Below, in pieces: positions 13,103-55,581 of a stretch of 60,644 nt of DNA. Source of the DNA: Clostridia bacterium (GTDB taxonomy: Bacteria > Bacillota > Clostridia > Christensenellales > Aristaeellaceae); NCBI GenBank assembly GCA_017938695.1, contig JAGBBA010000033.1, forward strand, positions 1 through 60,644. The letters are read 5' to 3'. The notes under the pieces are model-generated. The model was not told the DNA's origin, searched no databases, and saw only the letters and a program-made list of their open reading frames with translations. The number at the start of each line of letters is the position of its first letter. The first letter of the stretch is position 1. The position numbers and the translations under genes were made by a program.

Positions 13103-13275
13103 TCTCGGCGCGACTGTATTCGCGCCGAGACCCCTGCTTATGTGCGTACGAAACGCCATCCCCGAATGGGATTCTTAAGGGTCGAAGACCCTTAAGCGGG
13201 TTGTCAGGGCAGAGCCCTGACCGGGTTTCCAAAGGGCAGAGCCCTTTGGTGGGGTCCAGGGGCGAATGCCCCTGG
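13103..13275. repeat. Hairpin array A, abutting the rho stop codon
   Basis: Six successive hairpins: 13103-13130 (11-bp stem, TCTCGGCGCGA arm, 6-nt loop), 13158-13172 (ATCCC/GGGAT), 13174-13196 (10-bp stem, loop GAA), 13203-13221 (8 bp, loop AGA), 13229-13249 (9 bp, loop AGA), 13256-13275 (8 bp, loop GAAT). The last base touches the rho stop codon at 13276. Stems are perfect. No U-tract follows any stem, so this is not an ordinary intrinsic terminator. It is the most complete copy in the window. Confidence 0.85.
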
Positions 13276-15150
13276 TTAGCGGCTTTTTTCCATGAGGGCG
13301 ACCCAGTCCTTGAATTTGACGAGGAAGGCCTCGTTGGAGTCGGTCTTGGTGATGAGGGATAGAATTTGGGGGATCGCGGTGATGGAACGGGTGGTGCCCA
13401 GGGTGCTGCGGAGAAGCTGCAGGCCTTCCAGCTGGGCGTCGTTCAGCAGGGCTTCGGCGCGCTTGGTGCCGGAAAGCTGCAGGTTGATGGGGGGCTTCAC
13501 ACCGGCGTGGGCAAGGGAAGCGTCCAGCACCAGCTCCATGTTGGCAGTGCCCTTGAATTCTTCCACAACGCTGTCATCCACCTTGCCGGTTTCGATGTTC
13601 ATGGCACCGATCACGGTGAGGCTGCCGCCTTCCTTCACGCAGCGGGCCGCGCCGAAGAGCTTCTTGGCACGGAAAAGGCTGGTGGGGTTCACCATGCCCG
13701 GCATGCTGCGGCCCTGCTGGGCTGCGGCGGTGGTGTACACCTTGGCCAGCCGGGTGAGGCTATCCACGATCAGGATCACGTCCTGGCCCTGCTCCACCAA
13801 TCGCTGGGCACGCTCCAGCACCATTTCGGCCAGACGGAGATGGTTCTCCGGCGGCTGATCAAAGGTGGAAGCCAGTACCTGGCATTCCACATGCTCGCGG
13901 AAGAGAGTCACGTCCTCGGGGTTCTCATCAATGAGCAGCACCATCACGTGAGCATCAGGATGGTTGGCGTTGATCACGTTGGCAAAGTTCTGAAGCAGCG
14001 TGGTTTTGCCGGTGTCCGGAGGACAGAGCAGCAATCCGCGCTGACCAAAGCCCAGGGGAGCGATCAGGTCGATGAGGCGCATGTCGTCCAGGGGCTTTTC
14101 GGTGTGGGATTCCAGGTCGATGCGGCGGGTGGGGTAGATGGGGGTCAGCTCGTCGAAGGAGGGACGGGTCTGCAGTTCGTCAGCAGGCAGGCCGTTGACC
14201 TCGGTGATGTAGAGCATGGCGGTGTACTTGTCGCCGTCGCGCTGGGGGCGGGTCTTGCCCACCACCTTATCGCCGGTACGCAGGCCGAAGCGGCGGATCT
14301 GCGCCATAGACACGTAAATATCCTTGCTGGAGGGCAGGAAATAATCAGAACGCAGGAAGCCGTAACCGTCGGGATGCAGCTCCAGCACGCCGCTGCCGTC
14401 GCCGCACTCGCCGGCGGCCAGCAGCTCGTTCACAGCAGGATTGGCTGCGCCGGGCTCCTGGTTGTAGAAATTCTGCTCACGGGGCTGGTTGTAGGCAGGC
14501 CGGGGCGAATAGCCGCGGTTGTTGTAGTTGTTGTAGCCGCCATAATTGTTGTTGTAGGCGGGCTGCTGATCGAAATTGTTCTGCGCGGGCTCGGTACGGG
14601 GCGTTTCGTTGTGATAATGATTGTAGCCGTTGTTGTAGGCAGGACGGCGTTCCTGCGCACCGGGGCCGAAGCCGGAGCGGGCAGGCTCGGGCCGGTAGGG
14701 GCGGTAGTCGTCCTCGCGCTGTTCATTGGAGGCAGCGGCAGCACCGGGGCCAAAACGGGGCGTGTAGTTGTTGCGCACGGGCGCGGGCCGCTGGGTATCC
14801 ATGGCAGGGCGGTTCTGGGGGCTCTGCCAAGCGGGCCGCTGGGGATAGCTGGGAGCCTGATAAGCAGGCTTGCTGTTGTAGCGGGGCGCGGCGTTGGTGT
14901 TGTGCCAGGCGGCCTTATACTGCGTTTGCGCCGGAGCAGGCTCAGCGGGCTTGGCCTCGGCAGGCTGCTCCGGCTCGGCAGGGGCGGGCGCGGGGACAGG
15001 CTCAGCAGCGGGCTGAGCATCACAAAGGGCGGCGGCCAGCTTGGCGACGATGTCGCTCTTGGATACGCCTGCGCCCAGGGTCACGCCGTTTTCTTTGGCG
15101 AGCTTACGCAGCTCGACCACTGTTTTGGCAGAAAGTTCTTGCGTTGTCAA
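13276..15150 (-). CDS. rho: Transcription termination factor Rho with a long disordered insert
   Basis: RNA-dependent ATPase/helicase that terminates transcription. The 624-residue protein has an N-terminal helix bundle (1-42), a ~195-residue low-complexity stretch (43-240), the cold-shock RNA-binding domain (~252-325), and the RecA-like motor with Walker A PPDTGKTT (377-384), Walker B VILIVDS (458-464) and the Q/R-loop region. The insert starts Pro/Ala-rich and becomes rich in Asn, Tyr, Gln and Arg (NNNYGGYNNYNNRGYSP), like the prion-like domain described in Clostridium botulinum Rho. The start is TTG 15150 after GGAGG. A hairpin array sits directly after its stop. Confidence 0.97.
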   Translation of the reverse strand: MTTQELSAKTVVELRKLAKENGVTLGAGVSKSDIVAKLAAALCDAQPAAEPVPAPAPAEPEQPAEAKPAEPAPAQTQYKAAWHNTNAAPRYNSKPAYQAPSYPQRPAWQSPQNRPAMDTQRPAPVRNNYTPRFGPGAAAASNEQREDDYRPYRPEPARSGFGPGAQERRPAYNNGYNHYHNETPRTEPAQNNFDQQPAYNNNYGGYNNYNNRGYSPRPAYNQPREQNFYNQEPGAANPAVNELLAAGECGDGSGVLELHPDGYGFLRSDYFLPSSKDIYVSMAQIRRFGLRTGDKVVGKTRPQRDGDKYTAMLYITEVNGLPADELQTRPSFDELTPIYPTRRIDLESHTEKPLDDMRLIDLIAPLGFGQRGLLLCPPDTGKTTLLQNFANVINANHPDAHVMVLLIDENPEDVTLFREHVECQVLASTFDQPPENHLRLAEMVLERAQRLVEQGQDVILIVDSLTRLAKVYTTAAAQQGRSMPGMVNPTSLFRAKKLFGAARCVKEGGSLTVIGAMNIETGKVDDSVVEEFKGTANMELVLDASLAHAGVKPPINLQLSGTKRAEALLNDAQLEGLQLLRSTLGTTRSITAIPQILSLITKTDSNEAFLVKFKDWVALMEKSR

Positions 15151-15220
15151 TGGTAGTGCCTCCTAATAGCAATGCGTACAGAAAAGAAAGATAAGATATC
15201 GTATGCAAAGATGGGGTCAT

Positions 15221-16231
15221 TTATGCCTTGCGGGCCACCACCACATCGCGGGTGACGGCTTGCTCTACAAAGTGTTCAAAGTCGTTGTAGGGGGCTTCCT
15301 TCAGCACCTGGAAACCGGCGGCCTCCATCAGCTCGATCAGGGTTGTGCGGGGGAGCGTCAGGCTGTTGAAGCTGATGGCTACGCCTGCGCCGGGGCGGAG
15401 AGCATCCTTCCAGGAGGGAAGCACGCGCCGCAGCATGCCGGGGAAATTCTCAGGGCGGCGGCCCTCCTGGGGGGCGTGCTGCACGCCGTAGGGGAGGTCG
15501 GCCACGAGGATATCCGCCGGGGTCTTTTTCAGCAGAGCACCGGTGCAGCCGGTATCGCCCAGGAGCATGCGCAGGCTGCGGGTGTCGCCAGCCTGGAAAG
15601 CCTGCTTGCTGTTGGCAGTGGTGTAAATGGCGTCGGGGATGTTCTGGCCCTTCACGGTGCGCGCGCCCTGCTCCAGCTTGTGCTTCAGGCGGTGGAACTG
15701 CAGGTAGCGGCTGAAATAATCAGCGGCTTCCTTCAGATCCTTGCGGTCCATGTCGATGCCCACGCTGTTCATGCCGCATTGCAGGGCCACGAACAGGGTT
15801 GTGCCGCGGCCGCAGAGGGGGTCCAGCACGGTGACGGGCTTTTCTGCACCGAAAGATTTGCTGGCCGTCAGGGCCAGGTTGATCATCATGTGGGTGAACA
15901 CCGCGCTGGTCTTGCCCTTGTACTTGAGCACTTCGGCCAGGTCGCGGGGGAAATAATCGGTGTCGGGGCGGTCGATGGGTCGCAGAAGGCCGTTTTCCTC
16001 CTGGCACATGAAGCAAAGCGCGCTGTACCGGGAGCAGGCCAGCAGCTGGGCAGGGGTCAGTTCGGGGGCGTCAAAGCATAGAAAAGGCGCGCCGCCGATT
16101 TGTTCCAGACGCACTTCGGCATCAATATGCAGGGCGTTGAGGATGCAGGAAAGCTCCGCTGCACCCAGCAGGTTCAACGATTCCTGATAACGTATGTTGG
16201 CGTGAGGCAATAATTGAAAGCAATATTTCAT
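15221..16231 (-). CDS. TRM11-like SAM-dependent methyltransferase
   Basis: A 336-residue protein with a C-terminal Rossmann methyltransferase: motif I is LDPLCGRGTTLFVAL and motif IV is DLPYG, the form found in Trm11/TrmG10-type RNA methyltransferases rather than NPPY DNA enzymes. The N-terminal ~140 residues are family-specific and no THUMP domain is obvious. The substrate is unknown; a tRNA guanine N2 target would be in line with relatives. ATG 16231 is chosen because the upstream open frame runs through the promoter. rho follows 70 nt downstream and may be co-transcribed. Confidence 0.8.
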   Translation of the reverse strand: MKYCFQLLPHANIRYQESLNLLGAAELSCILNALHIDAEVRLEQIGGAPFLCFDAPELTPAQLLACSRYSALCFMCQEENGLLRPIDRPDTDYFPRDLAEVLKYKGKTSAVFTHMMINLALTASKSFGAEKPVTVLDPLCGRGTTLFVALQCGMNSVGIDMDRKDLKEAADYFSRYLQFHRLKHKLEQGARTVKGQNIPDAIYTTANSKQAFQAGDTRSLRMLLGDTGCTGALLKKTPADILVADLPYGVQHAPQEGRRPENFPGMLRRVLPSWKDALRPGAGVAISFNSLTLPRTTLIELMEAAGFQVLKEAPYNDFEHFVEQAVTRDVVVARKA

Positions 16232-16265
16232 GGATCCCTCTTCTTTTTGAATGGATGATGCGAAT

Positions 16266-16294
16266 AGTATAACAAATCGGGCGAAAAATCGCAA
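16266..16294 (-). promoter_or_regulatory. Promoter of the TRM11-like gene (and perhaps rho)
   Basis: On the minus strand TTGCGA (16289-16294), 17-nt spacer, TATACT (16266-16271). Confidence 0.65.
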
Positions 16295-16363
16295 GAGATT
16301 CCCAGGAAATTTAATGGATACAATCAAGAAAAACAACCGCGTTGAAGGACGAAACGGGCAAAC

Positions 16364-16392
16364 AAAAAACCCTTTCCCATAGTGGGAAAGGG
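16364..16392 (-). terminator. rpsU terminator
   Basis: CCCTTTCCCA/TGGGAAAGGG, 3-nt loop, followed on the minus strand by TTTTTT. Confidence 0.9.
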
Positions 16393-16406
16393 AATTTGTA
16401 CGAAAA

Positions 16407-16580
16407 TTAGTACTTGCGCTTGCGTGCGGCTTCAGCCTTCTTCTTACGCTTTACGCTGGGCTTTTCGTAATGCTCACGCTTGCGGACCTCCTGAATGACG
16501 CCTGCGCGGGCACATTGCCGCTTAAAACGCTTGAGCGCACTCTCCAGAGATTCATTCTCGCGGACTCGTACCTCGGACAC
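16407..16580 (-). CDS. rpsU: 30S ribosomal protein S21
   Basis: A 57-residue basic protein needed for translation initiation, reading [20 protein letters not shown] at the start and ending in a Lys/Arg-rich helix ([14 protein letters not shown]). It starts at GTG 16580 after GGAGGGATAACA. It is too short for routine frame tracks but complete. The prmA-rsmE-mtaB-HIT-rpsU order is common in Clostridia. It has its own strong promoter and terminator. Confidence 0.96.
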
Positions 16581-16653
16581 TGTTATCCCTCCTCTCGCTC
16601 ATCTCGCCTTGACATCAGCCGGCTAAGACGGACGGATGGCGAACCGTATAACT

Positions 16654-16682
16654 ATTATATCGTCTTTCAAGTTTCGAGTCAA
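16654..16682 (-). promoter_or_regulatory. rpsU promoter
   Basis: On the minus strand TTGACT (16677-16682), 17-nt spacer, consensus TATAAT (16654-16659). Confidence 0.85.
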
Positions 16683-16737
16683 TGGGAAAACAAGATTTTC
16701 TCAAGAATTTTTTCATGAAAAACGGATTTTTGAGCGA

Positions 16738-17082
16738 TCAGGCCATGTTTTCGGTCAATTGGCGGCCACCCAGCACATGGAAATGCAGGTGATGGACGCT
16801 CTGGCAGGCGTGATCGCCGCAGTTGGACACCACGCGGAAGCCGTTCTCCGTCAGGCCTTCCAGCTCGGCGACCTTCTTGCAGGCGCGCAGGCAGGCAGCC
16901 AGGGTGGCATCGTCAGCCTCGTCAATGCCGGACATGCCGGTGACGTGCCGCTTGGGGATCACCAGCACATGGGTGGGTGCCTGGGGATTGATGTCGCGGA
17001 AGGCGTAGACCTTCTCGTCCTCGTAAACCTTGGTGGAGGGGATGTCACCGGCGATGATCTTGCAGAAAAGACAGTTGTTCAT
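16738..17082 (-). CDS. HIT family nucleotide-binding protein
   Basis: A 114-residue histidine triad protein, probably a purine nucleoside phosphoramidate hydrolase (HinT-like). The opening CLFCKIIAGDIPSTKVYED and the triad HHLHFHVLGG near the C-terminus are diagnostic. Start ATG 17082 follows AAAGGAGCACC. It lies between the unknown membrane protein gene and rpsU, the usual Clostridial position. Confidence 0.95.
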   Translation of the reverse strand: MNNCLFCKIIAGDIPSTKVYEDEKVYAFRDINPQAPTHVLVIPKRHVTGMSGIDEADDATLAACLRACKKVAELEGLTENGFRVVSNCGDHACQSVHHLHFHVLGGRQLTENMA

Positions 17083-17098
17083 GGTGGGTGCTCCTTTC

Positions 17099-17713
17099 TT
17101 ATTCCATGGTTGTCTGTGAAAAAGTAAGCGTAACGGCATAGACATGGTCGTGGCCTTCGCTGGCCAGCTTTTCGGGCTGGTAGAAGAAATGCGTACCGAT
17201 GAACTGCGGGCTTTGGTTGGCAGTGTAGATTTGCATAGCCACCGGGATGGGTGTTTCGTAGGTGATTTCCTGCAGCTGGGTGAGCATGGTGGTATACAGC
17301 CCGTTATCAGCTGCTGGGGCAAAATCAACAGCGAAATCCTTGTTGACGGTATAGGTGTAGCTGGCACCGTCGACGGAATAGGTTATGCCCTTGGGCAGAT
17401 CGTTGAAGGAAAGGGAAAACTGCCCCTCGCGGAGGGAAGCACCGATACGGCCGCCGCCAAGATCGGTCCATTGACCGTCTTTCAGCTCCCATATCTCCAT
17501 CACGACGCTTTTCAGCCCGTCATCCATACGGAAGTTGTAGGTCTGGTTGAAGGAGGCAGGGTACAAGGGCTGTGCTTCGGCAGGCTCCATATACATAGCG
17601 GGCTTCTTCTCAAAAAGGGGCTTCTCCTGGTTGATCTGCCAGAGGATGATACCAGCAGCAATCACGATCACTAATTCAATGCAGATGACAATGATCCATG
17701 CTTTGCGCTTCAT
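17099..17713 (-). CDS. Membrane-anchored protein of unknown function
   Basis: A 204-residue protein with one N-terminal membrane segment (IIVICIELVIVIAAGIILW, residues 7-25) after a Lys/Arg start, so the rest probably faces outward. The exported part shows beta-rich character (TYNFRMDD, VVMEIWELKDGQWTDLGGG, SYTYTVN). I do not recognise the family. It overlaps the mtaB stop by ATGA, so it is translationally coupled to mtaB, and precedes the HIT gene. Confidence 0.75.
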   Translation of the reverse strand: MKRKAWIIVICIELVIVIAAGIILWQINQEKPLFEKKPAMYMEPAEAQPLYPASFNQTYNFRMDDGLKSVVMEIWELKDGQWTDLGGGRIGASLREGQFSLSFNDLPKGITYSVDGASYTYTVNKDFAVDFAPAADNGLYTTMLTQLQEITYETPIPVAMQIYTANQSPQFIGTHFFYQPEKLASEGHDHVYAVTLTFSQTTME

Positions 17714-19023
17714 ACTAATTCTCCCTTCATGCCCTCACCGTCGATGGCGGCGAGCCTGGCCGTGACCACCGCGCCGCTATGGCAGGCAGGGCAGTCCGGC
17801 AACGTGACCTGGATGTACTCCGGGGTGTAGCCCAGCCAGTTGCCCTCGGCGTTCTGCTCTTCCAGCAGCACGGGGGCGGTGAGGCCCAGCCAGCTTTCCT
17901 GATAGGCATGGGCGGTGGTGTCGCCCAGGGCGATCAGCTCACGGGCGCGCTGATCCTTCAGGGCGTTGGGCAGCTGGTTCGGCATTACGGCAGCTTTGGT
18001 GCCCTCGCGCTGGGAGTAGGGGAAGACGTGGATCTTCGCATAGCCCACGGTTTCGATAAAGCGGCGGGTCTGCTGGTATTCCTCCTCAGTTTCGCCGGGG
18101 AAGCCGGTGAGCACATCGGTGGTGAAAGCCGCATGGGGGAAAGCGGCGCGGAGGTTATTCACCGCGTCCAGGTACATGCGCGTGTTGTAGCGGCGGGCCA
18201 TGCGGGCCAGCACCGTATCGCTGCCGGATTGCAACGCCAGGTGGAACTGGGGGCAGACTTTGTCCATCTGCGCCAGACGGGCGGAGAACTCCGCCGTGGC
18301 GATGGTGGGCTCCAGGCTGCCCAGGCGGATGCGCAGAATGCCCTCGGTATCCTGCACGGCCTGGATGGCGTCCAGCAGGGTGGAGCCGTCGGCCAGGTCT
18401 TTGCCGTAGCTGGACAGATGGATGCCGGTAAGCACCAGCTCCCGGAAACCAGCCTGGGCCAGCCGGGCGGCCTCGGCGGCGATATCCGCCAGGGGACGGG
18501 AGCGGATGGGGCCGCGCACGCTGGGAATGATGCAGTAGGTGCAGTGGTTGTTGCAGCCCTCCTGAATTTTCAGCGTGGCGCGGGTGTGCTCCTCCTGGTC
18601 GGTGATGGTCAGGTTCTCGAAGGGCGTGGCGGTGGTGAGGGCATCCACGGCGCAAAGCTTGATGTCATCACGGACGGCCTTTTCCAGCAGGGTGACGACC
18701 TCGCCGCGCCGCTGGGTGCCAAGGATCAGCCGTGCGCCGGTTTCCAGCAGAGCTTCACCTTTGCGCTGGGCCAGACAGCCGCACAGAATGATGTGGCTGT
18801 CCGGATGCTCGCGGCGCAGGCGGCGGGTGATCTGCATGGACTTCTTGTCGCCGGTGCCGGTGACGGTGCAGGTGTTGAGCACATACACGTCGGCGGCCTC
18901 GTGGAAGGGGACGACGGTGTAGCCTGCGGCGCGGAAGAGCTCCAGCATGGCCTGGGTGTCGTATTGGTTCACCTTGCAGCCCAAGGTGTGAAAGGCAACT
19001 GTGTTCAAAGGGGTCAACTCCAT
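17710..19023 (-). CDS. mtaB: tRNA t6A37 methylthiotransferase MtaB
   Basis: Radical-SAM enzyme converting t6A37 to ms2t6A37 in tRNA. The UPF0004 domain supplies Cys16 (LGCKVNQYD), Cys52 (NTCTV) and Cys83 (CGCLAQ) for one cluster; the radical-SAM motif GCNNHCTYC supplies Cys157, 161 and 164 for the other. A C-terminal TRAM-like segment follows. The 437-residue size is normal. ATG 19023 is given, but TTG 19008, preceded by TGGAG, starts nearer the conserved TVAFHTLGC block and may be the true start. t6A itself depends on tsaC, also in this window. Confidence 0.95.
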   Translation of the reverse strand: MELTPLNTVAFHTLGCKVNQYDTQAMLELFRAAGYTVVPFHEAADVYVLNTCTVTGTGDKKSMQITRRLRREHPDSHIILCGCLAQRKGEALLETGARLILGTQRRGEVVTLLEKAVRDDIKLCAVDALTTATPFENLTITDQEEHTRATLKIQEGCNNHCTYCIIPSVRGPIRSRPLADIAAEAARLAQAGFRELVLTGIHLSSYGKDLADGSTLLDAIQAVQDTEGILRIRLGSLEPTIATAEFSARLAQMDKVCPQFHLALQSGSDTVLARMARRYNTRMYLDAVNNLRAAFPHAAFTTDVLTGFPGETEEEYQQTRRFIETVGYAKIHVFPYSQREGTKAAVMPNQLPNALKDQRARELIALGDTTAHAYQESWLGLTAPVLLEEQNAEGNWLGYTPEYIQVTLPDCPACHSGAVVTARLAAIDGEGMKGELV

Positions 19024-19030
19024 ATGTTGA

Positions 19031-19120: not shown

Positions 19121-19149
19121 AGTATTGTTGCGTTTTAGATGGTTGTACT

Positions 19150-21343: not shown

Positions 21344-21365
21344 GGGCAGGCCTCCTTGCGGGGGG

Positions 21366-21402
21366 ATTCGGAATGCGGAATTCGGAATGCGGAATTCGGA
21401 AT
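21366..21402. repeat. AATTCGGAATGCGG-type repeat tract, copy before array B
   Basis: GGAATGC and GGAATTC units alternate (37 bp), followed by AAGTGAGGGCTG. Confidence 0.8.
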
Positions 21403-21470
21403 GAAGTGAGGGCTGCCGCTCAACGCGTCCCCAGCTTATGCGCGAACGCTGGGCATCCCCGAAAGGGTTT

Positions 21471-21570
21471 CGAAAGGGTCGAAGACCCTTCGTGGGATTC
21501 TTAAGGGCAAAGCCCTTAAGCGGAGTTCAGAGGCAGAGCCTCTGGCGGGTTGTCAGGGCGGAGCCATGAC
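21471..21570. repeat. Hairpin array B, next to the peptide-binding protein stop
   Basis: Hairpins at 21471-21492 (CGAAAGGGTC, loop GAA, one bulge), 21500-21520 (9 bp, loop AAA), 21528-21544 (CAGAGGC, loop AGA) and 21552-21570 (GTCAGGGC, loop GGA, one mismatch). The last ends 3 nt before the stop codon at 21574. A looser GC hairpin (CCCAGC/GCTGGG, about 21430-21453) precedes them. Confidence 0.8.
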
Positions 21571-21573
21571 CCC

Positions 21574-23154
21574 TTAGGGGTGGAAGGTTTCGATACCGCG
21601 GAGGAGTTCAAGCTCGCGCACGTCGCGGGCGGTGGTGTACATCTGCCGGGTGAGGACGGAGCCGGAGCGGTAGAAGAGGCAGATGAAGGGCACGTCCTCG
21701 GCAAAACGGGCCTGAATGTTCCACAGGGACTGCTTGAAGCCGTCCTGGGTGAGCTGGGTGCGCAGGTCTTTGCAGAGGCTGGTCATGTCGTTGGATTTGT
21801 ACAGGCCGTAGTTGCCGGTGTTGCCGGTCATGAGAAGGTAGCCGGGATCGGGGCAGACATCCATGGCGAAGGAGGCGATGGCCAGGTCGAAGGAGGCGGC
21901 CTTGAGCTTCTTCTGGATGTCGGTGAAGGTCATGATCTCGATCTTGGTGGAGATGCCCACCTGGCCCAGCATGTCGGCGATGAGGTTGGCGGTCTCCACA
22001 CGGACGTTGTTGTCCGGCTCTTCATAAACATAAATGCGCAGGTGCAGGTTCTTCTGCTTCCCGTCGGAGCCGGTCTTGTCCAGGATGGTATCGTCGTTGG
22101 TGTCGGCCCAGCCGTCGGCCTCAAGCAGGGCACGGGCGGCCTCGATATCCGTTTTGAAATAATCGCTCAGGGTGTCGTTGTACATCCAGGTGCCGGGGAT
22201 CATGGGGGTGTCGGTGCGCTCCACCATGCCCATGTACACCTGCTTGGCGATCTTGTCCGGGTCGATGAGATAGCGGATAGCCTGGCGCACGGCCAGGGAA
22301 TCCAGAGGGAAGGATTTGTGGTTGATCAGCACGGTTTCCAGCTGGTTGGTGCGGTAGTCCAGGGCCAGGGAGGTGGAGCCGTTTTTATGCTGGGCAGCCG
22401 CAATGGAACGGGTGAACACGGTATCCACCCGGGCATATTCGTAGCTTTCGATCACGGCGGAGGGGGAATCGTGCATGATGACCATCATTTCCTGCACCTG
22501 GGGCTTGGTCTGCCACCAGTGGGGGTTCTGCTGCAGCCAGATGTAGTTGGCAGGCTCGAAGGTGGAGATCATGTAGGCACCGGTGCCGGGCGGATTGGGC
22601 GAGGACACACGATCCTTGGGCAGCACGGGGAAGGTCATGGCATAGAGCAGGCCGTAGTAATTGCGGCCGGAAGCGGTCTTTACCACCACGGTATGGTCGC
22701 CGGAGGCACTGATCTTGCTGACGAAGTATTTCAGGTTGAAGTAATAACCGGGGGTCTGGGAGTCTTCTTCATTGGCGCGGTCCAGGATATACTGGGCGGT
22801 GGCCACCACGTCGTGGGCGGTCATGGGCGTGCCGTCGGAAAAGAAGATGTTCTCGCGCAGGTGGAAGGTCCAGGTCTTGCCGTTGCCGGATTCCTCCCAG
22901 CTTTCGGCCAGACCGGGCTGGGGGAGATAGTCGTCGTCAATGACGATAAGGCTCTCGTACACCAGGTCGTAGATGCTCATCATGTCCCGTTCCACAGGGT
23001 CCAGGGGCTCAATGAGGGTGGTCTTGGTGGACTGGATGCCGATGACCAGGCTGTCGCCCATGTTGGTGGCACGGGCGATGTCAGGCAGGATCAGAAGAAG
23101 GGTCAGCGTCAGGGGCAGCAGCTTCCTGATAAAAAAGCGCATCGTAGATCGCAT
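21574..23154 (-). CDS. ABC transporter substrate-binding protein, family 5 (peptide/nickel type)
   Basis: A 526-residue exported solute-binding protein, of the oligopeptide/dipeptide class. A signal peptide spans ~1-29 (LLPLTLTLLLILPDIARA); there is no lipobox cysteine, unusual for a Firmicute binding protein, so it may stay anchored by the uncleaved segment or be released. Typical blocks: YDLVYESLIVIDD, PGLAESWEES, WTFHLRENIFFSDGTPMTAHDV, and QAIRYLIDPDKIAKQVYMG. The ATG at 23154 overlaps the preceding lytic transglycosylase gene by about 70 nt, an unusually long overlap; ATG 23142 is an alternative. No permease genes are nearby. Confidence 0.88.
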   Translation of the reverse strand: MRSTMRFFIRKLLPLTLTLLLILPDIARATNMGDSLVIGIQSTKTTLIEPLDPVERDMMSIYDLVYESLIVIDDDYLPQPGLAESWEESGNGKTWTFHLRENIFFSDGTPMTAHDVVATAQYILDRANEEDSQTPGYYFNLKYFVSKISASGDHTVVVKTASGRNYYGLLYAMTFPVLPKDRVSSPNPPGTGAYMISTFEPANYIWLQQNPHWWQTKPQVQEMMVIMHDSPSAVIESYEYARVDTVFTRSIAAAQHKNGSTSLALDYRTNQLETVLINHKSFPLDSLAVRQAIRYLIDPDKIAKQVYMGMVERTDTPMIPGTWMYNDTLSDYFKTDIEAARALLEADGWADTNDDTILDKTGSDGKQKNLHLRIYVYEEPDNNVRVETANLIADMLGQVGISTKIEIMTFTDIQKKLKAASFDLAIASFAMDVCPDPGYLLMTGNTGNYGLYKSNDMTSLCKDLRTQLTQDGFKQSLWNIQARFAEDVPFICLFYRSGSVLTRQMYTTARDVRELELLRGIETFHP

Positions 23155-26023: not shown

Positions 26024-26058
26024 GAATGCGGAATTAGGAATTCGGAATGCGGAATTGA
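26024..26058. repeat. AATTCGGAATGCGG-type repeat tract, copy before array C
   Basis: GAATGCG, GAATTAG, GAATTCG, GAATGCG, GAATTG units followed by AGTGTGTGG. Confidence 0.8.
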
Positions 26059-26093
26059 GTGTGTGGCACGCGCACGCCAAGCAGCTTATCTCG

Positions 26094-26240
26094 CGTCGCG
26101 CCTGTCGCGCGACGTGACCCCTGCTCGGAGATCACCAAGCAACGCCATCCCCGCATGGGTTTCGAAAGGGTCGAAGACCCTTCGTGGGGATTCTCAAGGG
26201 GCAACGCCCCTTGAGTGGGGTCCAGGGGCAAAGCCCCTGG
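26094..26240. repeat. Hairpin array C, abutting the telA stop codon
   Basis: Hairpins at 26094-26114 (CGTCGCGC/GCGCGACG, 5-nt loop), 26163-26184 (loop GAA), 26193-26215 (10-bp stem CTCAAGGGGC, loop AAC) and 26222-26240 (CCAGGGGC, loop AAA). The last base is directly before the telA stop at 26241. Confidence 0.85.
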
Positions 26241-35107: not shown

Positions 35108-35236
35108 GTCGCGGCGCGACCGTATTCGCGCCGTGACCCCAGCAGTTACCCCACCCAGCCGCACCCATCCCGAAGGGGAGTCCAGAGGACCGAATGGCCC
35201 TTTGGTGGGGTTCCCCAAGGGGCAACGCCCCTTGGG
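35108..35236. repeat. Hairpin array D, near the ABC exporter stop codon
   Basis: GC-rich hairpin 35108-35137 (GTCGCGGCGCGA arm, 6-nt loop CCGTAT, one G-T pair), a decayed hairpin 35182-35205, and a 10-bp stem at 35214-35236 (CCCAAGGGGC, loop AAC). The array ends 9 nt before the stop at 35246. No AATTCGG tract precedes it. The GC-rich hairpin is identical to that of array E. Confidence 0.8.
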
Positions 35237-46692: not shown

Positions 46693-46734
46693 AATTCGGA
46701 ATTCGGAATGCGGAATTCGGAATTGAGAATGTGG
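46693..46734. repeat. AATTCGGAATGCGG-type repeat tract, copy before array E
   Basis: GGAATTC, GGAATGC, GGAATTC units, followed by GAGAATGTGGGCTGGGG, a flank shared with the copy at 20843. Confidence 0.8.
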
Positions 46735-46802
46735 GCTGGGGGAATGCGATTCTCCCCCAAATTTTATAGAACTGCGCTGTGGTGGGCGGGCAGAACCACT
46801 CC

Positions 46803-46845
46803 CTCAGTCGCCAGGCGGCGACAGCTCCCTCGGAGAGGGAGCCTT
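46803..46845. repeat. Two-hairpin repeat within the array E region
   Basis: GTCGCC/GGCGAC with a 4-nt loop (46807-46822) and GCTCCCTC/GAGGGAGC with loop GGA (46824-46842), followed by CTTAG. This GCTCCCTC...GAGGGAGCCTT form recalls dispersed repeats I have seen in gut Clostridia and is distinct from the arrays. Confidence 0.6.
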
Positions 46846-46859
46846 AGTTTGAATCTTGC

Positions 46860-46983
46860 GTCGCGGCGCGACCGTATTCGCGCCGTGACCCATGCAAAAA
46901 ACCCACCCTGCAACATCGCAGGATGGGTTTCGAAAGGGCTGAAAGCCCTTCGTGGGGAGTCCAGAGGGGCAACGCCCCTTTGG
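46860..46983. repeat. Hairpin array E, abutting the fhs stop codon
   Basis: GC-rich hairpin 46861-46890 (same sequence as in array D), hairpin 46931-46952 (CGAAAGGGCT, loop GAA, one bulge), hairpin 46961-46983 (CCAGAGGGGC, loop AAC, one G-T pair). Between them a CCCACCCTGC...GCAGGATGGG pairing (46901-46927) adds a fourth stem. The last base touches the fhs stop at 46984. Confidence 0.8.
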
Positions 46984-48654: not shown

Positions 48655-48705
48655 ATGGATCAAGCTCCTTTATCATTGCGGTTGGGAAAACGAACATACC
48701 ATTTT

Positions 48706-48861: not shown

Positions 48862-48873
48862 GGGTCGATACGG

Positions 48874-49599: not shown

Positions 49600-49626
49600 A
49601 TTTCATTCCTCCTGGATGTATCGTGC

Positions 49627-50481: not shown

Positions 50482-50954
50482 AGGTCCTGCACCTCCTCAA
50501 ATACTTGGCTGCGGCGCATCGCATCCCGGCCACGGGCCAGGCGGGATTTGACGGTGCCGCTGGGTATACGCAGCATGCTGGCGATCTCCTGAATCTCATA
50601 GCCCTCCAGGTAGAACAGCACCATAGGCAAACGGAGCTTGTCCGGCAGACCGGTAAAGAACCGATACAGGTTCGGGTCTGAACCGGGCGGGGCAGGGGCG
50701 TCGGGGATGGTCTCCACGGGCGTTTCGCGCTTGCGGCTGCGGATGATGGCGTAACATTCGTTGACCAGAATGCGCGTCACCCAGGCCTGCAGGCGGCTTT
50801 CATCCTTAAGGGTGGCCTGCTTGCGCCACGCTTTTTCAATGCAGGACTGCACAGCGTCCTCCCGGTCGCACAGTTGGGGCAGGATCGCACAGGATACGCG
50901 GTAGAGCGATGCCTGCATCTCCACGATGTGCCGGGCAAATTCCTCGTGTGTCAT
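50478..50954 (-). CDS. ECF RNA polymerase sigma factor (locus 2)
   Basis: A 158-residue sigma factor with region 2 (CDREDAVQSCIEKAWRKQ, AWVTRILVNECYAIIRSRKR) and region 4 (LPMVLFYLEGYEIQEIASML, IPSGTVKSRLARGRDAM). ATG 50954 is preferred over 50966 because GGAGGAG falls between them. It is coupled to the anti-sigma gene by overlap. Confidence 0.94.
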   Translation of the reverse strand: MTHEEFARHIVEMQASLYRVSCAILPQLCDREDAVQSCIEKAWRKQATLKDESRLQAWVTRILVNECYAIIRSRKRETPVETIPDAPAPPGSDPNLYRFFTGLPDKLRLPMVLFYLEGYEIQEIASMLRIPSGTVKSRLARGRDAMRRSQVFEEVQDL

Positions 50955-51065
50955 AAGCTCCTCCATGGTGTGTAAATCGACTTACACTTATATGATGCCG
51001 GAGGGTGGGGGAAGGTTCCGTAACCATTGTAAATTACTTGATGGATATGGTAAAGCAGGAAATCA

Positions 51066-51096
51066 AACAAAAAAAGAGAGCCCTTTCGGACTCTCT
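51066..51096 (-). terminator. rplJ-rplL terminator
   Basis: AGAGAGCCC...GGACTCTCT stem, 4-nt loop, then TTTTTTT on the minus strand. Confidence 0.85.
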
Positions 51097-51114
51097 TGAA
51101 GACACTGTACGAAA

Positions 51115-51486
51115 TTACTTGATTTCGACGGTGGCACCCACAGCCTTGAACTGCTCGGCGATCTTCTCGGCTTCTTCCTTGGAAGCGCCTTCCTTAATGG
51201 TCTTGGGAGCGGACTCCACGATTTCCTTGGCTTCCTTCAGGCCCAGGCCGGCAACGACTTCGCGCACAACCTTGATGACCTTGATCTTCTCGGAGCCGGC
51301 ATCCTTCAGGATGACGTCGAACTCGGTCTTCTCTTCCTCAGCAGCAGCGGCAGCAGCGGGGGCAGCACCACCGGCAACAGCGATAGCACCGGTCACGCCG
51401 AACTCTTCCTTCATGGCGTCGACCAGTTCCTTGATCTCCAGCAGAGTCATGGACTTGATAGCGTCCAAAATTTCCTGATGAGTCAT
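51115..51486 (-). CDS. rplL: 50S ribosomal protein L7/L12
   Basis: A 123-residue stalk protein: N-terminal dimerisation helices ([21 protein letters not shown]), Ala-rich hinge ([15 protein letters not shown]), and C-terminal factor-binding domain with [20 protein letters not shown]. Complete and ends EIK. It is 66 nt downstream of rplJ. Confidence 0.98.
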
Positions 51487-51552
51487 TTTATTTTCCCTCC
51501 AAATTGTAAAGTAAATGTTTGTTGTTATGCGGCCATTATGCGGCCAGTGGGA

Positions 51553-52050
51553 TTAGGCAGCCTTCTGCTCGGCGATTTCGTCCAGCACGGCAACCAGAGA
51601 AGACACGGGGGAGACCAGGCAGCCAACCAGGGTGGCCAGCAGCTCTTCGCGGCTGGGCAGGGCGGCCAGAGCCTTCACAGCGGCAACGTCCATGACCTCG
51701 GTGCCCATCAGGCCACCCTTGATCTCCAGGGACTGCAGCTTGTTCTTCTCGATGAAGTCGTTCACGACCTTGGGAGCGTTGGTCACGTCCTTGGTGGAGA
51801 ACACGAAGGCGTTGGGGCCCTCCAGCAGATTCTCCAGGCCGGGGATGTTCAGCTCCTGCAGGGCGCGCAGCACCAGGCGGTTCTTCAGCACGCAGTACTG
51901 AACATCCTGCTCACGGCACAGCTTACGCAGGTTGGTCACCTGTTCCACGGTCAGACCGTTGTAGGAGCAGATCACCATGGACTGGCAATTCTTGATCTTC
52001 TCAACAATGTCAGCCACGACCTGAACTTTCAACTCACGATTCTTGCTCAT
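51553..52050 (-). CDS. rplJ: 50S ribosomal protein L10
   Basis: A 165-residue protein that anchors L7/L12 dimers to 23S rRNA. Blocks SMVICSYNGLTVEQVTNLR, YCVLKNRLVLRAL and GPNAFVFS are typical. ATG 52050 starts MSKNRELKVQVV after GAGGAGG. Upstream in-frame codons lie in the structured leader and are excluded. Confidence 0.98.
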   Translation of the reverse strand: MSKNRELKVQVVADIVEKIKNCQSMVICSYNGLTVEQVTNLRKLCREQDVQYCVLKNRLVLRALQELNIPGLENLLEGPNAFVFSTKDVTNAPKVVNDFIEKNKLQSLEIKGGLMGTEVMDVAAVKALAALPSREELLATLVGCLVSPVSSLVAVLDEIAEQKAA

Positions 52051-52218
52051 TTCTTCTTGCACCTCCTCAATGGTTTGGGAGTAAAAGAAAACCCTTGCGC
52101 AGGCGCAAGGGAGAGCTTGACAAAAGATCAACTATCCTTTACACCTCGGCAGGCGGAGCGGACTCCTTTACATCCTTGCGGATACCGGCTGTCTACGGCA
52201 CAGGTTTCTTCAAAACCA
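52051..52218 (-). promoter_or_regulatory. L10 leader RNA with attenuator
   Basis: The leader contains the conserved L10-binding architecture (GTAGACAGCCGG..., AAGGATGTAAAGGAGTCCGC, CTGCCGAGGT) and a terminator-like stem CCCTTGCG/CGCAAGGG (52092-52111) followed by TTTTCTTTT on the minus strand. In Firmicutes this leader binds excess L10/L12 to repress the operon. Confidence 0.85.
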
Positions 52219-52224
52219 GATGTC

Positions 52225-52253
52225 ATTATACACGCAACACGCCTGTTTGTCAA
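52225..52253 (-). promoter_or_regulatory. Promoter of rplJ-rplL
   Basis: On the minus strand TTGACA (52248-52253), 17-nt spacer, TATAAT (52225-52230): full consensus. Confidence 0.92.
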
Positions 52254-52323
52254 CACTTTGCGCAGCTTTTTTTCCATGATCTGTTACACATCTTACATTG
52301 TTGTAAATATGACGGCAAATTTC

Positions 52324-52352
52324 TTGAAATCGACATGGAATTGTAATACATT
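52324..52352 (+). promoter_or_regulatory. Promoter of the SH3/PG-binding protein gene
   Basis: TTGAAA (52324-52329), 17-nt spacer, TACATT (52347-52352). Confidence 0.5.
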
Positions 52353-52376
52353 AAGCTGGAAAGGAGCTGATTGCAA

Positions 52377-53357
52377 ATGCAACAGACAAAGCATCTGCGC
52401 CGTCTGGCGGCGGTATGCCTGGCCATGTTCCTGATGCTGATGGCTTCGACTGCTCTGGCGGCGGAGGGAACGGTGAACACCAAGTCCCTGGTGCTGCGTA
52501 AATCCGCCAGCAAAAACAGCAAGGTCCTGCATACCCTGGACAAGGGCGACCGGCTGGAGGTCCTCAGCAGCACGGGGGACTGGTACAGGGTCAGCTATGG
52601 CAAGTATACCGGCTATGTGATGAAGAAATACGTGAAGGTCAGCGGCAAGGTGGAGGAGAAAGAATCTTCTACTAATAATACGGCCACCAAAGAAGAAAAC
52701 AACACCACCGTGGGAGACTTGGGCGATGCGCCCGGCACCTCCCGCCCTGGCGACCGCGGCAGCGACGTAAAAAAACTGCAGCAGGCCCTGAAGGCAAAGG
52801 GCTTGTACTCCGGCAAGATCGACGGCATCTACGGCAAGGGCACCACGGCGGCTGTGCGGGACTTTCAGCGGAAGTACGGCCTGAGCCGCGACGGCATTGC
52901 GGGCAAGGTGACCATCCGCACTCTGTTCGGCGAACCTGCGGCCGATGCGGATGCGCTGAAGCCCCAGTCCCTGAAATGGTTCAGTAATACAGGCACCATT
53001 CCCCGGGGCGCAACGGTGACCATCAAGGACTGCTACACCGGCAAAACCTTCAACGCCGTGCGGTGGAGCGGCTCCAACCACATGGATACCGAGCCTGCCA
53101 GCAAAGCCGATGCGGCTACGTTCAAGGAAATCTACGGCGGCAGTTACAGCTGGAAGCGTCGCCCCATCCTGGTGAAATATGACGGCAAGGTTTACGCTGC
53201 CTCCATGAACGGCATGCCCCACGGCACCAGCACCATTTCTAACGGCTTTGACGGGCACTTCTGTGTGCATTTCACCGGCAGCAAGACCCACGAAACCGAC
53301 AAGGTGGACGCTGATCACCAGAACTGCGTGGAAACGGCAATGAAATACAGCTGGTAA
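52377..53357 (+). CDS. Secreted SH3 and peptidoglycan-binding protein with a His-rich C-terminal domain
   Basis: A 326-residue exported protein: signal peptide (1-28, ending ASTALA), SH3-like domain (~30-85, LVLRKSASKNSKVLHTLDKG and YTGYVMKKY), Ser/Thr/Asn linker, PG_binding_1 domain (~125-185, GSDVKKLQQALKAKG and DGIYGKGTTAAVRDFQRKYG), and a C-terminal ~130-residue domain with GSNHMD, FDGHFCVHFTGSKTHETD and DADHQNCVE. The last domain, with its spaced His, Cys and Asp, looks enzymatic but is not one I recognise. ATG 52377 follows AAAGGAG. Confidence 0.82.
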   Translation: MQQTKHLRRLAAVCLAMFLMLMASTALAAEGTVNTKSLVLRKSASKNSKVLHTLDKGDRLEVLSSTGDWYRVSYGKYTGYVMKKYVKVSGKVEEKESSTNNTATKEENNTTVGDLGDAPGTSRPGDRGSDVKKLQQALKAKGLYSGKIDGIYGKGTTAAVRDFQRKYGLSRDGIAGKVTIRTLFGEPAADADALKPQSLKWFSNTGTIPRGATVTIKDCYTGKTFNAVRWSGSNHMDTEPASKADAATFKEIYGGSYSWKRRPILVKYDGKVYAASMNGMPHGTSTISNGFDGHFCVHFTGSKTHETDKVDADHQNCVETAMKYSW

Positions 53358-53361
53358 ACCA

Positions 53362-53390
53362 TTGACAACCCTGCAAAATCCTGATAAAAT
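53362..53390 (+). promoter_or_regulatory. Promoter of the aspS T-box transcript
   Basis: TTGACA (53362-53367), 17-nt spacer, TAAAAT (53385-53390). Confidence 0.8.
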
Positions 53391-53396
53391 CAGTGG

Positions 53397-53622
53397 TAAG
53401 GCTGTGATGAGAAGAGCGTGCGGAGGCCGTCCACAGAGAGGGAATGGTTGCTGAAAATTCCCGTCGGGATCCGCGCGGAGACACCTCGGAGCCCCCTGGT
53501 GAGAATCAGGCGCGTCCTCGCGTTACAGGGGATAACAAGGCGGCACTTCGCCGCGAAGCAGGGTGGCACCGCGAAAATGCTTTTTCGCCCCATGCAGATA
53601 AGCTTTCTGCATGGGGCTTTTC
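53397..53622 (+). promoter_or_regulatory. T-box riboswitch upstream of aspS
   Basis: A 225-nt leader with a long stem I, a specifier-like GAC (53480-53482, followed by A) for aspartate, the T-box sequence AGGGTGGCACCGCG (53560-53573), and a terminator stem GCCCCATGCAG/CTGCATGGGGC (53587-53617) with TTTTCT. Uncharged tRNA-Asp should stabilise the antiterminator and allow aspS expression. The specifier choice agrees with the downstream gene. Confidence 0.93.
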
Positions 53623-53663
53623 TGTGCAGATGACCCGAATAATTCAGAAAGAGGTTGACAAGT

Positions 53664-55436
53664 ATGCAGAATCGTACCCATACCTGTAACGAACTGCGCA
53701 TGGCTGACTGCGGCAAGACCGTGAAGCTCTGCGGCTGGATGGAAAACGTCCGCGAAGTGTCCGGCAACCTGGCCTTCGTGGTGCTGCGCGATTTCTACGG
53801 CACCACGCAGATTGTGGTGGAAACCGAAGAAATGATGGCCGTGATCAAGGAGCTGAACAAGGAATCTACCATCGCCGTCACCGGCGTGGTGCGCGAGCGC
53901 GACTCCAAGAATCCCAAAATGGAGACCGGCGACATCGAAGTGGTGCCCGAGAAGATCGAGGTGCTGGGCCGCTGCCGCTACAACGAGCTGCCCTTCCAGA
54001 TCAACCGCTCCAAGGACGCTGACGAGAGCCTGCGCCTGAAGTACCGCTATCTGGACCTGCGCAACCCCGAGGTGAAGAAGAACATCATCATGCGCTGCAA
54101 TGTGGTGTCCGCCCTGCGCAACGCCATGAACGAGCACGGCTTCCTGGAGATCACCACCCCCATCCTGACTGCCTCTTCTCCCGAGGGTGCCCGTGACTAC
54201 CTGGTGCCTGCCCGTAAGCACCCCGGCATGTTCTATGCGCTGCCCCAGGCTCCCCAGCAGTTCAAGCAGCTGCTGATGACCTCCGGCTTCGACAAGTATT
54301 TCCAGATCGCCCCTTGCTTCCGCGACGAGGACGCCCGCGGCGACCGCAGCCCCGGCGAGTTCTATCAGCTGGACATGGAAATGGCCTTCGCCTCCCAGGA
54401 CGACGTGTTCGCCGTGCTGGAGGACGTGCTGCCCCCCATCTTCGCCAAGTATGGCAAGTATAACATTGCTTCCTCTGCGCCCTTCAAGCGCATTCCCTTC
54501 AACGAGTCCATGGAAGTGTATGGCTCCGACAAGCCCGACCTGCGCATCGACCTGACCCTGACCGACGTCACCGAGCTCATCGGCTCCTGCGGCTTCGGCC
54601 CCTTCGAGGGCAATGTGGTGAAGGCCGTGGTCGTGTCCGACATGACCGCCACCCGCAAGCAGATCGACAAGCTGTGTGCCGACGTGGAAGTGGTCACCGG
54701 CAACAAGGCCTTCTGGTTCAAGGTGGACGAGAAGGGTCAAATTGCCGGCGGTATCGCCAAGTTCCTGCAGGACAAGGCGGACGAGATCATCTCCGCCCTG
54801 AACCTGAAGCCCAACACCTTCGTGGGCCTGACCGCTGGCAAGAAGCTGGTTGCCCAGAAGACCGCCGGTACCCTGCGCAAGATGGTGGCCGAGCTGGCTC
54901 CCCAGCACATCGACCGCGAACGCTACGAGTTCTGCTGGATCGTGGACTTCCCCATGTACGAGATCGGCGAGGAATCCGGCGAGCTGGAGTTCTGCCACAA
55001 CCCCTTCTCCATGCCCAACGGCGGCCTGGAGATCCTGAACAAGGCCGCTGCAGGCGAGGTAGATCCGCTGTCCATTACCGCCTTCCAGTACGACCTGGTG
55101 TGCAACGGCGTGGAGCTCTCCTCCGGTGCCGTGCGTAACCACGATCCCGAGATCATGATCAAGGCCTTCCAGATGGTGCGCCTGGGCGAGGAAGACGTGA
55201 AGGCCAAGTTCCCGGCCATGTACAACGCCTTCTGCTATGGTGCTCCGCCCCATGCCGGCATCGCCCCCGGTGTTGACCGCATGGTGATGCTCCTGGCTGG
55301 TGAAGAGTCCATCCGCGAGGTCATCGTCTTCCCCATGAACAAAAACGCCCAGGACCTGATGATGGGTGCACCTGGCACTGTGGAACAGAAGCAGCTGGAT
55401 GAGCTGCATATCGCCATCGTGAAGGACGAAGAGTGA
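53664..55436 (+). CDS. aspS: Aspartate-tRNA ligase
   Basis: Class II aminoacyl-tRNA synthetase of 590 residues: N-terminal OB anticodon domain (VKLCGWMENVREVSGNLAFV), catalytic core with motif 2 (CFRDEDARGDRSPGEFYQLD) and motif 3 (PGVDRMVMLL), and the bacterial GAD insert (~290-420). Motif 2 carries ARGDRSPGEFYQ instead of the more usual LRADRQPEFTQ; related Clostridia use a similar form. ATG 53664 follows GAGG within the region after the T-box. An inverted hairpin array begins two nt after its stop. Confidence 0.97.
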   Translation: MQNRTHTCNELRMADCGKTVKLCGWMENVREVSGNLAFVVLRDFYGTTQIVVETEEMMAVIKELNKESTIAVTGVVRERDSKNPKMETGDIEVVPEKIEVLGRCRYNELPFQINRSKDADESLRLKYRYLDLRNPEVKKNIIMRCNVVSALRNAMNEHGFLEITTPILTASSPEGARDYLVPARKHPGMFYALPQAPQQFKQLLMTSGFDKYFQIAPCFRDEDARGDRSPGEFYQLDMEMAFASQDDVFAVLEDVLPPIFAKYGKYNIASSAPFKRIPFNESMEVYGSDKPDLRIDLTLTDVTELIGSCGFGPFEGNVVKAVVVSDMTATRKQIDKLCADVEVVTGNKAFWFKVDEKGQIAGGIAKFLQDKADEIISALNLKPNTFVGLTAGKKLVAQKTAGTLRKMVAELAPQHIDRERYEFCWIVDFPMYEIGEESGELEFCHNPFSMPNGGLEILNKAAAGEVDPLSITAFQYDLVCNGVELSSGAVRNHDPEIMIKAFQMVRLGEEDVKAKFPAMYNAFCYGAPPHAGIAPGVDRMVMLLAGEESIREVIVFPMNKNAQDLMMGAPGTVEQKQLDELHIAIVKDEE

Positions 55437-55438
55437 CG

Positions 55439-55581
55439 CCAGAGGGCTCTGCCCTCTGGACTCCCGGTCAGGGCTCTGCCCTGACAACCCGCTTAAGGGA
55501 TTTCATCCCTTAAGAATCCCGTTCGGGGATGGCGTTTGGTACGCATCTAAGCAGGGGTCACGGTGCGCAGAGGGCGCACCG
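55439..55581. repeat. Hairpin array F-left (inverted), directly after aspS
   Basis: Same modules in opposite orientation: 55439-55459 (9-bp CCAGAGGGC, loop TCT), 55467-55485 (GTCAGGGC, loop TCT), 55492-55514 (CTTAAGGGAT, loop TTC), 55517-55531 (ATCCC/GGGAT), 55561-55581 (CGGTGCGC/GCGCACCG, 5-nt loop). Module order mirrors array A reversed. It starts 2 nt after the aspS stop. Confidence 0.85.

Follow-up and report, generated by a model that had tools for sequence, protein, structure and literature searches.

Polarised hairpin arrays abutting stop codons in a Clostridia genome: a candidate transcribed 3′-end module

Results

Hairpin arrays at the gene ends of the window

The window analysed here, 60,644 nucleotides of contig JAGBBA010000033.1 (C11 of the 76 contigs of a 2.53 Mb, 87.5% complete Clostridia bacterium assembly, GCA_017938695.1, family Aristaeellaceae), carries arrays of short hairpins next to several of its genes, the families of which were checked with Pfam. 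Read on the mRNA strand, an array consists of successive hairpins, each with a stem of about 7–10 bp and a loop of 3–4 nt, joined by linkers that include ACCCC, ACTCC, AACCC, AATCCC and AAACCC. For automated calling, an array is defined as at least two near-perfect hairpins in a single orientation, with a spacing within 14 nt; its head is the 5′ end with the Y-loop and its tail is the opposite end.

Four hairpins (13174–13196, 13203–13221, 13229–13249 and 13256–13275) make up the minus-strand array at 13174–13275, which lies 0 nt from the stop codon of rho (called at 13276–15120, minus strand; PF07497 and PF00006). Another four, at 21471–21570 on the minus strand, follow the gene of a family 5 solute-binding protein (SBP_bac_5; stop at 21574), with one mismatch in the gene-proximal unit (21552–21570), and three, at 26163–26240 on the same strand, abut the stop of telA (26241; TelA, PF05816). 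A degenerate minus-strand array at 35182–35236 lies 9 nt from the stop of an ABC subunit gene (35246; ABC_membrane, ABC_tran) and consists of a perfect hairpin (35214–35236), the only unit picked up by the automated caller, and an imperfect last unit (35182–35205). The stop of fhs (46984; FTHFS, PF01268) is abutted by two minus-strand hairpins at 46931–46983, the first of which (46961–46983) has one A.C mismatch, and on the plus strand three hairpins at 55439–55514 begin 2 nt after the stop of aspS (55436; tRNA-synt_2). The distances of 0, 3, 0, 9, 0 and 2 nt given for these six genes in a preliminary description of this DNA hold, those of the solute-binding protein gene and fhs with a tolerance of one mismatch each. 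The mRNA-sense loops are mostly the TTC, TCT, GTT and TTT listed there; TCC, in the unit at 21552, and ATTC, in the stop-adjacent rho unit and the imperfect ABC unit, complete the list.

Two further arrays of three hairpins, both on the minus strand, had not been listed. The one at 55835–55913 is antisense to aspS and to an Asp23-family gene (PF03780; 55977, plus strand), and its head ends, by eye, 5 nt ahead of a promoter-like TTGTCA-17-TATACT on the side of the latter gene. The one at 57773–57845 is antisense to both flanking genes, with its head 35 nt ahead of the nusB ATG at 57881 (NusB, PF01029), a codon conserved in relatives, whereas our gene-calling script had placed the start at 57911.

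Additional hairpins lie beyond the arrays. Past the rho array the sequence reads GGGGTC-stem-loop-stem-GAC (13102–13134), and tail hairpins were likewise read beyond the telA array (26090–26121, stem 26094–26114), the ABC array (35108–35140) and the fhs terminator described below (46860–46891, stem 46864–46885), all on the minus strand, as well as beyond the aspS array (55554–55585, plus strand). Among the 62 arrays of this genome with enough sequence, a mini hairpin CCC-N3-5-GGG follows in 36 and a larger GTC...GAC hairpin in 35.

Placement and polarity across the genome

The element was followed through 1,052,868 bases, 41.6% of the genome, with genes called by our own codon-score script. 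This sample holds 66 arrays with 203 hairpins (18 arrays of two, 29 of three, 15 of four and 4 of five), with none inside a called gene, which extrapolates to about 160 arrays per genome (66 in 42%). The head is directed to a sense stop codon in 47 arrays, to an antisense start in 18 and to no called gene in one. As many as 30 of the 47 sense heads stand at 0 nt or overlap the stop (median 0 nt), 35 lie within 5 nt or overlap it and 44 within 25 nt, the outliers being at 194, 1867 and 2451 nt. Heads facing antisense starts stand 11–161 nt away and, in the cases read by eye, adjoin a Shine-Dalgarno sequence or a −35 box. On the tail side, where 59 arrays have a called gene, none comes closer than 52 nt.

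Random orientation and distance across the genome, named in the preliminary description as speaking against its proposal, were looked for and not observed. Of the 58 arrays with both neighbours known, 33 have a sense stop within 5 nt, whereas 20,000 trials of uniform placement and random orientation gave a mean of 1.6 and a maximum of 8. Its statement that the arrays keep one fixed orientation holds at the six genes listed there, but not for the two antisense arrays of the window or for the 18 of 66 that head to antisense starts. The polarity is the constant: the Y-loop end faces the gene border, and we propose as a rule that the array head touches a functional border, most often the stop. In the first scan, which permitted mixed calls, 2 of 42 arrays were of mixed orientation; the later caller is single-orientation by design. 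When gaps of 150 nt or more are considered, 45 of 157 tandem and 7 of 28 convergent ones hold an array, compared with 1 of 70 divergent ones.

Arrays in a second species

G008, a species of the same genus with 75% AspS identity, was sampled over 358,312 bases. Its 57 arrays have up to 10 hairpins and often stand at both ends of convergent gaps; their heads are directed to a sense stop in 48, to an antisense start in 6 and to no called gene in 3. Both neighbours are called for 47 arrays, and 24 of these lie within 5 nt of a sense stop, compared with a simulated mean of 0.5 and a maximum of 4 (5,000 trials). Of the 3′ ends next to gaps of 150 nt or more, 34 of 52 convergent and 4 of 32 tandem ones have an array no further than 60 nt from the stop; divergent gaps number 40, yet they hold none of these 47 arrays. 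For 56 arrays, 80 nt of downstream sequence are available, and in 49 of them a U-tract terminator follows within 60 nt beyond the array; in five of the remaining seven the detector had, by eye, halted short of the last units. The G008 module is plainly stop, hairpins, last hairpin and terminator. The 3′-end function suggested in the preliminary description is thus supported by the placement at 3′ ends, by the avoidance of divergent regions in both species (1 of 70 gaps and 0 of 47 arrays) and by the terminators of G008.

The distances to the stop also bear on a translation-level role. Escherichia coli repetitive extragenic palindromic (REP) elements within 15 nt of a stop codon are described as stalling ribosomes and lowering expression (PMC12306157, in a passage citing the original study), and hairpins in this range could slow the terminating ribosome in the same manner. 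The range observed here fits. Up to 10 hairpins followed by terminators exceed what such an effect needs, a general repression of rho, aspS and fhs is not obviously useful and the antisense arrays are left unexplained, so that we hold this account to be hardly probable at all.

A role as processing boundaries within operons, as in selective RNA processing and stabilization (SRPS), would have tail-to-tail array pairs protect an upstream 3′ end and a downstream 5′ end while the spacer between them is cut. Five gaps of our sample hold two arrays that are, from their orientations, tail to tail, some arrays adjoin Shine-Dalgarno sequences, and stem-loops of a clostridial operon are reported, in the portion of the source available, to stabilise both ends and to direct cleavage (PMC10311766). 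Against this stand the 39 of 57 G008 arrays that lie in convergent gaps, not within operons, and locus L010, where two arrays point in the same direction; such boundaries seem to us improbable.

Arrays and U-tract terminators

The array hairpins themselves have no T-tract directly after them, and the earlier statement that these genes lack a U-tract terminator is correct for the sequence directly following the stop. It does not extend further downstream. The fhs array leads into the U-tract terminator GGGTTTTTT, with the stem end 29 nt past the array; this intrinsic terminator, identified from its fold (AAACCCATCCTGC / GCAGGGTGGGTTTTTT; 46896–46930, minus strand), lies directly after the array and uses the last linker of the array as its 5′ arm. 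In the genome sample, such a terminator follows no more than 80 nt past the array at 15 of 41 sense array sites. The plain U-tract terminators of this sample start at a median of 12 nt from the stop, and 5 of 128 start at or before 0. At a few orthologous sites an array in a sister species stands opposite a U-tract terminator of the window's genome (L198, L063 and L064 by the detector, L070 by eye).

Stop-enclosing hairpins and the grammar of the units

In 12 of the 47 sense arrays of the genome sample the first hairpin encloses the stop codon (distances −5 to −3). Across all species examined there are 35 distinct stop-enclosing hairpin sequences, some of them mutually orthologous; this count was taken irrespective of a following array, and one of them, at L133, resembles a plain terminator. 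On the 3′ arm stands the complement of TAA (in one case of TGA), mostly together with that of one or two bases upstream of the stop, and the last sense base takes part in C:G, T:A and A:T pairs. Where the last codon of orthologs is GCC, GCT or GCA, the other arm reads TTAGG, TTAAG or TTATG (L192, L146 and L153; L068 and L150). In 6 of 7 pairs compared by eye, the two species share the end point of the reading frame, and for this reason the stop looks native. Either these hairpins would have been written against the local gene end, or their pairing with the gene end would have been selected.

The units follow further regularities. The window's genome and the loci found by pattern in named genomes together contain 213 distinct hairpins among 579 units, which start, by eye, with CCAGGGG, CTTAAGG, GTCAGGG and similar strings. 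Last units fall into three types in 60 of 66 arrays (CGAAGGG in 33, CCAAAGGG...CTCTGG in 16 and CTTAAGGG/CTCAAGGG in 11), and heads and middles are mostly of other types. The G-run of a stem equals the C-run of the following linker in 161 of 212 distinct units, against a mean of 78 and a maximum of 104 in 5,000 shuffles; with the preceding linker the runs match in 110 of 282 cases (r=0.04). In 44 of 51 T-containing cases the 3′ arm and the linker are mirror images around TGGA. A triplex or G-quadruplex as the basis of the mirror linkers was considered on paper and is unsupported, the A/T positions misfitting a single triad rule. Pair counts on the unit alignment (A2) are biased, the units having been found as hairpins.

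These features would allow a bolder interpretation, namely a new kind of gene-end module, an ordered hairpin array in which the head hairpin would be written against a gene's native end, its 3′ arm complementing and tracking the stop and last sense codon, and in which each hairpin dictates the linker that follows (C-run equal to G-run, mirror-image 3′ arm and linker). Such a module would imply an unknown copying or folding rule and would supplant or reinforce terminators genome-wide. We put it forward tentatively and regard it as rather unlikely.

Inherited positions and rewritten contents

Orthologous gene ends were compared between species, and here the sampling matters. The named loci, of which at least 80 were listed, had been selected by the hairpin pattern and are biased towards arrays, so that unbiased sampling is limited to the contigs retrieved through aspS synteny (G004, G006, G012 and G015). 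Over 254 orthologous 3′-end pairs, where those that come from different species but share a site depend on one another, 34 have an array in both, 12 in the window's genome only, 8 in the other only and 200 in neither; the synteny-only contigs give 8, 3, 0 and 64, respectively. Sister species thus keep the array in 34 of 46 pairs, or in 8 of 11 when the synteny-only contigs are taken alone; by eye, 6 of 20 sites scored as absent still carry hairpins that are degenerate, single or displaced. For 37 arrays of the genome sample a matching place was available elsewhere, and in 29 of these an array is present in at least one other source.

The contents behave differently from the positions. None of the 34 shared orthologous positions has identical arrays. 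Among 55 paired arrays, whose flanks are 70–98% identical (the lowest, at 70–75%, may be paralogs), the hairpins are identical in none and the string of unit types in 2, the first type is shared in 14 and the last in 27; random pairs from the window's genome share the first type in 15% and the last in 33%. At rho, the binding protein gene and telA, the G012 and G006 arrays stand at the same stop and in the same orientation with different hairpins, and the same is true of G004, G006 and G012 at fhs. Array positions are thus passed on over moderate time spans, and their contents are rewritten meanwhile.

Arrays downstream of aspS are found in G006 and G015, and another repeat lies there in G012 and G004. 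This repeat, with CCGAAGGGGTGG...CGATCGGAAAGCCCC, was observed at the place of the window's array in L024/L088 (G012) and in G004, and its CCAAAGGGC..GCCCTTTGG hairpin has a long loop insert in G004 as compared with G012.

The gain or loss of an array at a short stop-to-start gap does occur: of two orthologous loci, L059 and L120, one has an array and tail, and the other (L059) has a 13-nt gap between stop and start with only a Shine-Dalgarno sequence. This case, together with the existence of other array-free orthologous sites, the 30 of 47 sense heads that reach the stop (0 nt or overlap) and the 35 distinct stop-enclosing sequences, speaks for a mobile unit recognising stop codons, as raised in the preliminary description. 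Such a unit would be expected to meet a stop, which 18 of 66 arrays do not at their heads; the stop looks native in the pairs compared above, the positions shared between sisters indicate that most of these arrays were inherited and not newly inserted, and a Pfam Y1 search found no candidate or dedicated enzyme. We consider this mechanism very improbable.

Distribution, enzymes and neighbouring repeats

Among the 80 matches listed in the pattern scan of named genomes, 79 belong to metagenome-assembled genomes (MAGs) labelled 'Clostridia' or 'Clostridiales bacterium', mostly from ruminant or deer gut where titles tell, and 1 to Desulfovibrio. A covariance-model search, in which at most 150 candidates per genome were scored, detected the unit in 11 of 18 genomes of the same genus at a strict E of 4.5e-6, in 0 of 6 genomes of other genera of the order at 1e-3, and in 11 of 13 genomes of the Desulfovibrio group, which belongs to another phylum, at 1e-4. 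That group shows the same style of hairpin and linker (L089, L204–L221, L248–L267). The genome matched by pattern is Desulfovibrio sp. UBA6121, and we take the genes of its contig to be Desulfovibrio-like and not contamination. In the Desulfovibrio group, 3 of 6 arrays at loci chosen by the model lie 7–19 nt after a sense stop; the stop rule is not shown for this group.

A single match to Pfam Y1 (PF01797) was found in the window's genome, at L022 12226–12696, beside a short hairpin end; we take it to be an IS200-type TnpA, and mobilisation by a REP-associated tyrosine transposase (RAYT) was provisionally set aside on this basis. PF01797 has no match in 12 of the 18 genomes of the genus, where the MAGs are incomplete. 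A plasmid or phage origin was also rejected, blastn of the 109-nt rho array giving no match in either collection. In Rfam, no family scores above the gathering threshold at the arrays, and the sole match of the window is an L10 leader (RF00557) at 52077–52216 on the minus strand (49.9 bits). Five unit strings have no occurrence in the library of open-licence PMC papers searched, and among the matches listed there we found no description of these arrays.

Other repeats share some of the intergenic regions. Tandem heptamer-type repeats, AATTCCG/CATTCCG, occur past the tail on the far side of four array regions (13011–13044, 21363–21404, 26024–26056 and 46698–46725), and a dispersed repeat, CTCCCTC...GAGGGAGC...GTGGTTCTGCC, lies between the tail and the heptamers at 46790–46850 and at several related loci.

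Discussion

In this study, we have described arrays of hairpins whose heads abut gene borders, above all stop codons. On balance, we think that they are probably, though far from certainly, a transcribed 3′-end module built from dispersed palindromic units. We favour this reading because of the exact anchoring at the stop, the avoidance of divergent regions, the terminators of G008 and the occasional replacement of a terminator. The module would run from the stop codon through 2–10 stable hairpins and a last hairpin of fixed type to an intrinsic terminator, as in most G008 arrays and part of those in the window's genome, or otherwise to a weaker terminator-like tail. Once the ribosome departs, the nascent RNA would fold into successive hairpins, which may help RNA polymerase to stop, and the structured 3′ end may resist 3′-to-5′ exonucleases. 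With more reserve, the reversed palindromes before Shine-Dalgarno sequences or −35 boxes might serve as a marker or a shield on the 5′ side of processed messages. Ectopic copying between arrays may be what rewrites the contents, position and polarity being passed on, as the sister species show for both rewriting and inheritance. The first hairpin is built onto what looks like the native gene end, so that the stop and bases of the last sense codon are sometimes found inside it.

A number of observations weigh against this module. The 18 of 66 arrays that head to starts are not needed by a pure 3′-end function, and at 26 of 41 array sites of the window's genome the detector finds no U-tract terminator in the 80 nt past the array. 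Stem mismatches show no preference for wobble pairs on the mRNA strand (23 A.C or C.A versus 8 G.T or T.G), and selection on that strand through wobble pairs was rejected; 20 of the 23 are A.C, however, and we judge most of these 20 to come from one unit family. In a 400 kb sample of G033, from the Desulfovibrio group, 0 of 4 arrays lie within 25 nt of a stop. Positions are not maintained in the long term either. Between G008 and the window's genome, 61 pairs give an array in both in 1, in G008 only in 10 and in the latter only in 6, and 35 pairs of G008 with the hairpin-selected named loci give 4, 7 and 5; array positions thus appear not to be conserved at about 75% protein identity, the overlap being near chance, and long-term conservation of position was rejected. 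The exchange of arrays and terminators, finally, is seen as a plain terminator opposite an array at a few orthologous sites, with weak statistics. Of 13 orthologs that lack an array present in G008, 6 have a terminator, compared with 9 of 50 orthologs in pairs that are array-free on both sides (one-sided p=0.04), an excess that is weak evidence for exchange and is confounded by context (5 of 9 versus 3 of 4 in convergent gaps only). Among sister species no excess was detected: a terminator stands in 3 of 20 absent partners by the detector and in 5 by eye, compared with 44 of 200.

REP-like repeats and terminators made of hairpin clusters are already known, and the arrays are a variant on these. 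REPs and bacterial interspersed mosaic elements (BIMEs) of the GTAG and CGTC families are likewise short, high-copy extragenic palindromes between tandem and convergent genes and near 3′ ends, as far as the available part of that survey describes them (PMC3733652). The arrays differ in having no single conserved stem, with many stems sharing a GGG/CCC core and C-run linkers, and in being ordered head to tail with one polarity and ordered last types; they do not show the alternating unit orientation of BIMEs. By eye, the units carry no GTAG or CGTC foot. The CGTC-REP is defined by an unpaired CGTC foot, A-T first pairs, a loop of 4–5 and a CCA tail, whereas in the GTC...GAC tail hairpin the GTC is paired with GAC, the first pairs are not A-T and the loops are of 5–6 (by eye). 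No RAYT was recognised in the window's genome by the Pfam Y1 search. Membership of the RAYT-REP class fails on foot, stem and unit order.

The main rival to a 3′-end module is selfish spread tolerated at gene edges. The arrays would then be non-functional REP-like repeats that survive in transcribed 3′ regions and gene edges, where harm is least, and that come to abut borders through the loss of dispensable DNA. The heads halt at an essential element (stop, Shine-Dalgarno or −35) in the cases read, the contents turn over, as do the positions at longer distance, and the 13-nt gap at L059 faces an array and tail at L120. REPs of other phyla are reported to be equally near 3′ ends and able to supply the stop codon, in the part of the source consulted (PMC3733652). 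Tolerance alone, on the other hand, predicts a spread of distances and not a peak at 0, and the terminator coupling of 49 of 56 G008 arrays speaks against this account, as does the Pfam Y1 search, which points to no dedicated transposase in the window's genome. We regard selfish spread as doubtful but as a real possibility; termination, protection and selfish spread are inseparable by sequence alone.

Among the precedents for the 3′-end module that we prefer are the hairpin clusters without a U-tract that are reported to act as intrinsic terminators at 3′ ends (Gupta and Pal 2021, PMC8355165). As in those clusters, to judge from the portion of that report available, consecutive hairpins lie less than 15 nt apart near stops and no U-tract is required, a likeness into which our own detection criterion of 14 nt is built. 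The clusters are described there as generic predicted hairpins; here a single repeat family with a grammar is involved, with some first hairpins enclosing the stop and, in G008, a dedicated terminator. Stem-loops that stabilise clostridial transcripts have also been reported (PMC4423207), and in the SRPS operons of Clostridium stem-loops at message ends likewise set mRNA stability, although these are described, in the excerpts at hand, for particular operons and not as a dispersed repeat family. Rho-independent terminators, for their part, occupy the same sites in some orthologs and end the arrays of G008 and part of those of the window's genome, whereas the array hairpins lack a T-tract and lie nearer to the stop (median 0 nt, n=47, versus 12 nt, n=128).

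The arrays mean that many gene 3′ ends in these bacteria would carry a structure that evolves fast in content and is yet inherited in position. They offer a way to test whether clusters of hairpins can end or shield transcripts in the absence of a T-tract, and whether domestication can turn REP-like repeats into terminators. The hairpins that enclose the stop codon and the coupling of stem to linker are unusual, and call for a mechanism of copying or of selection.

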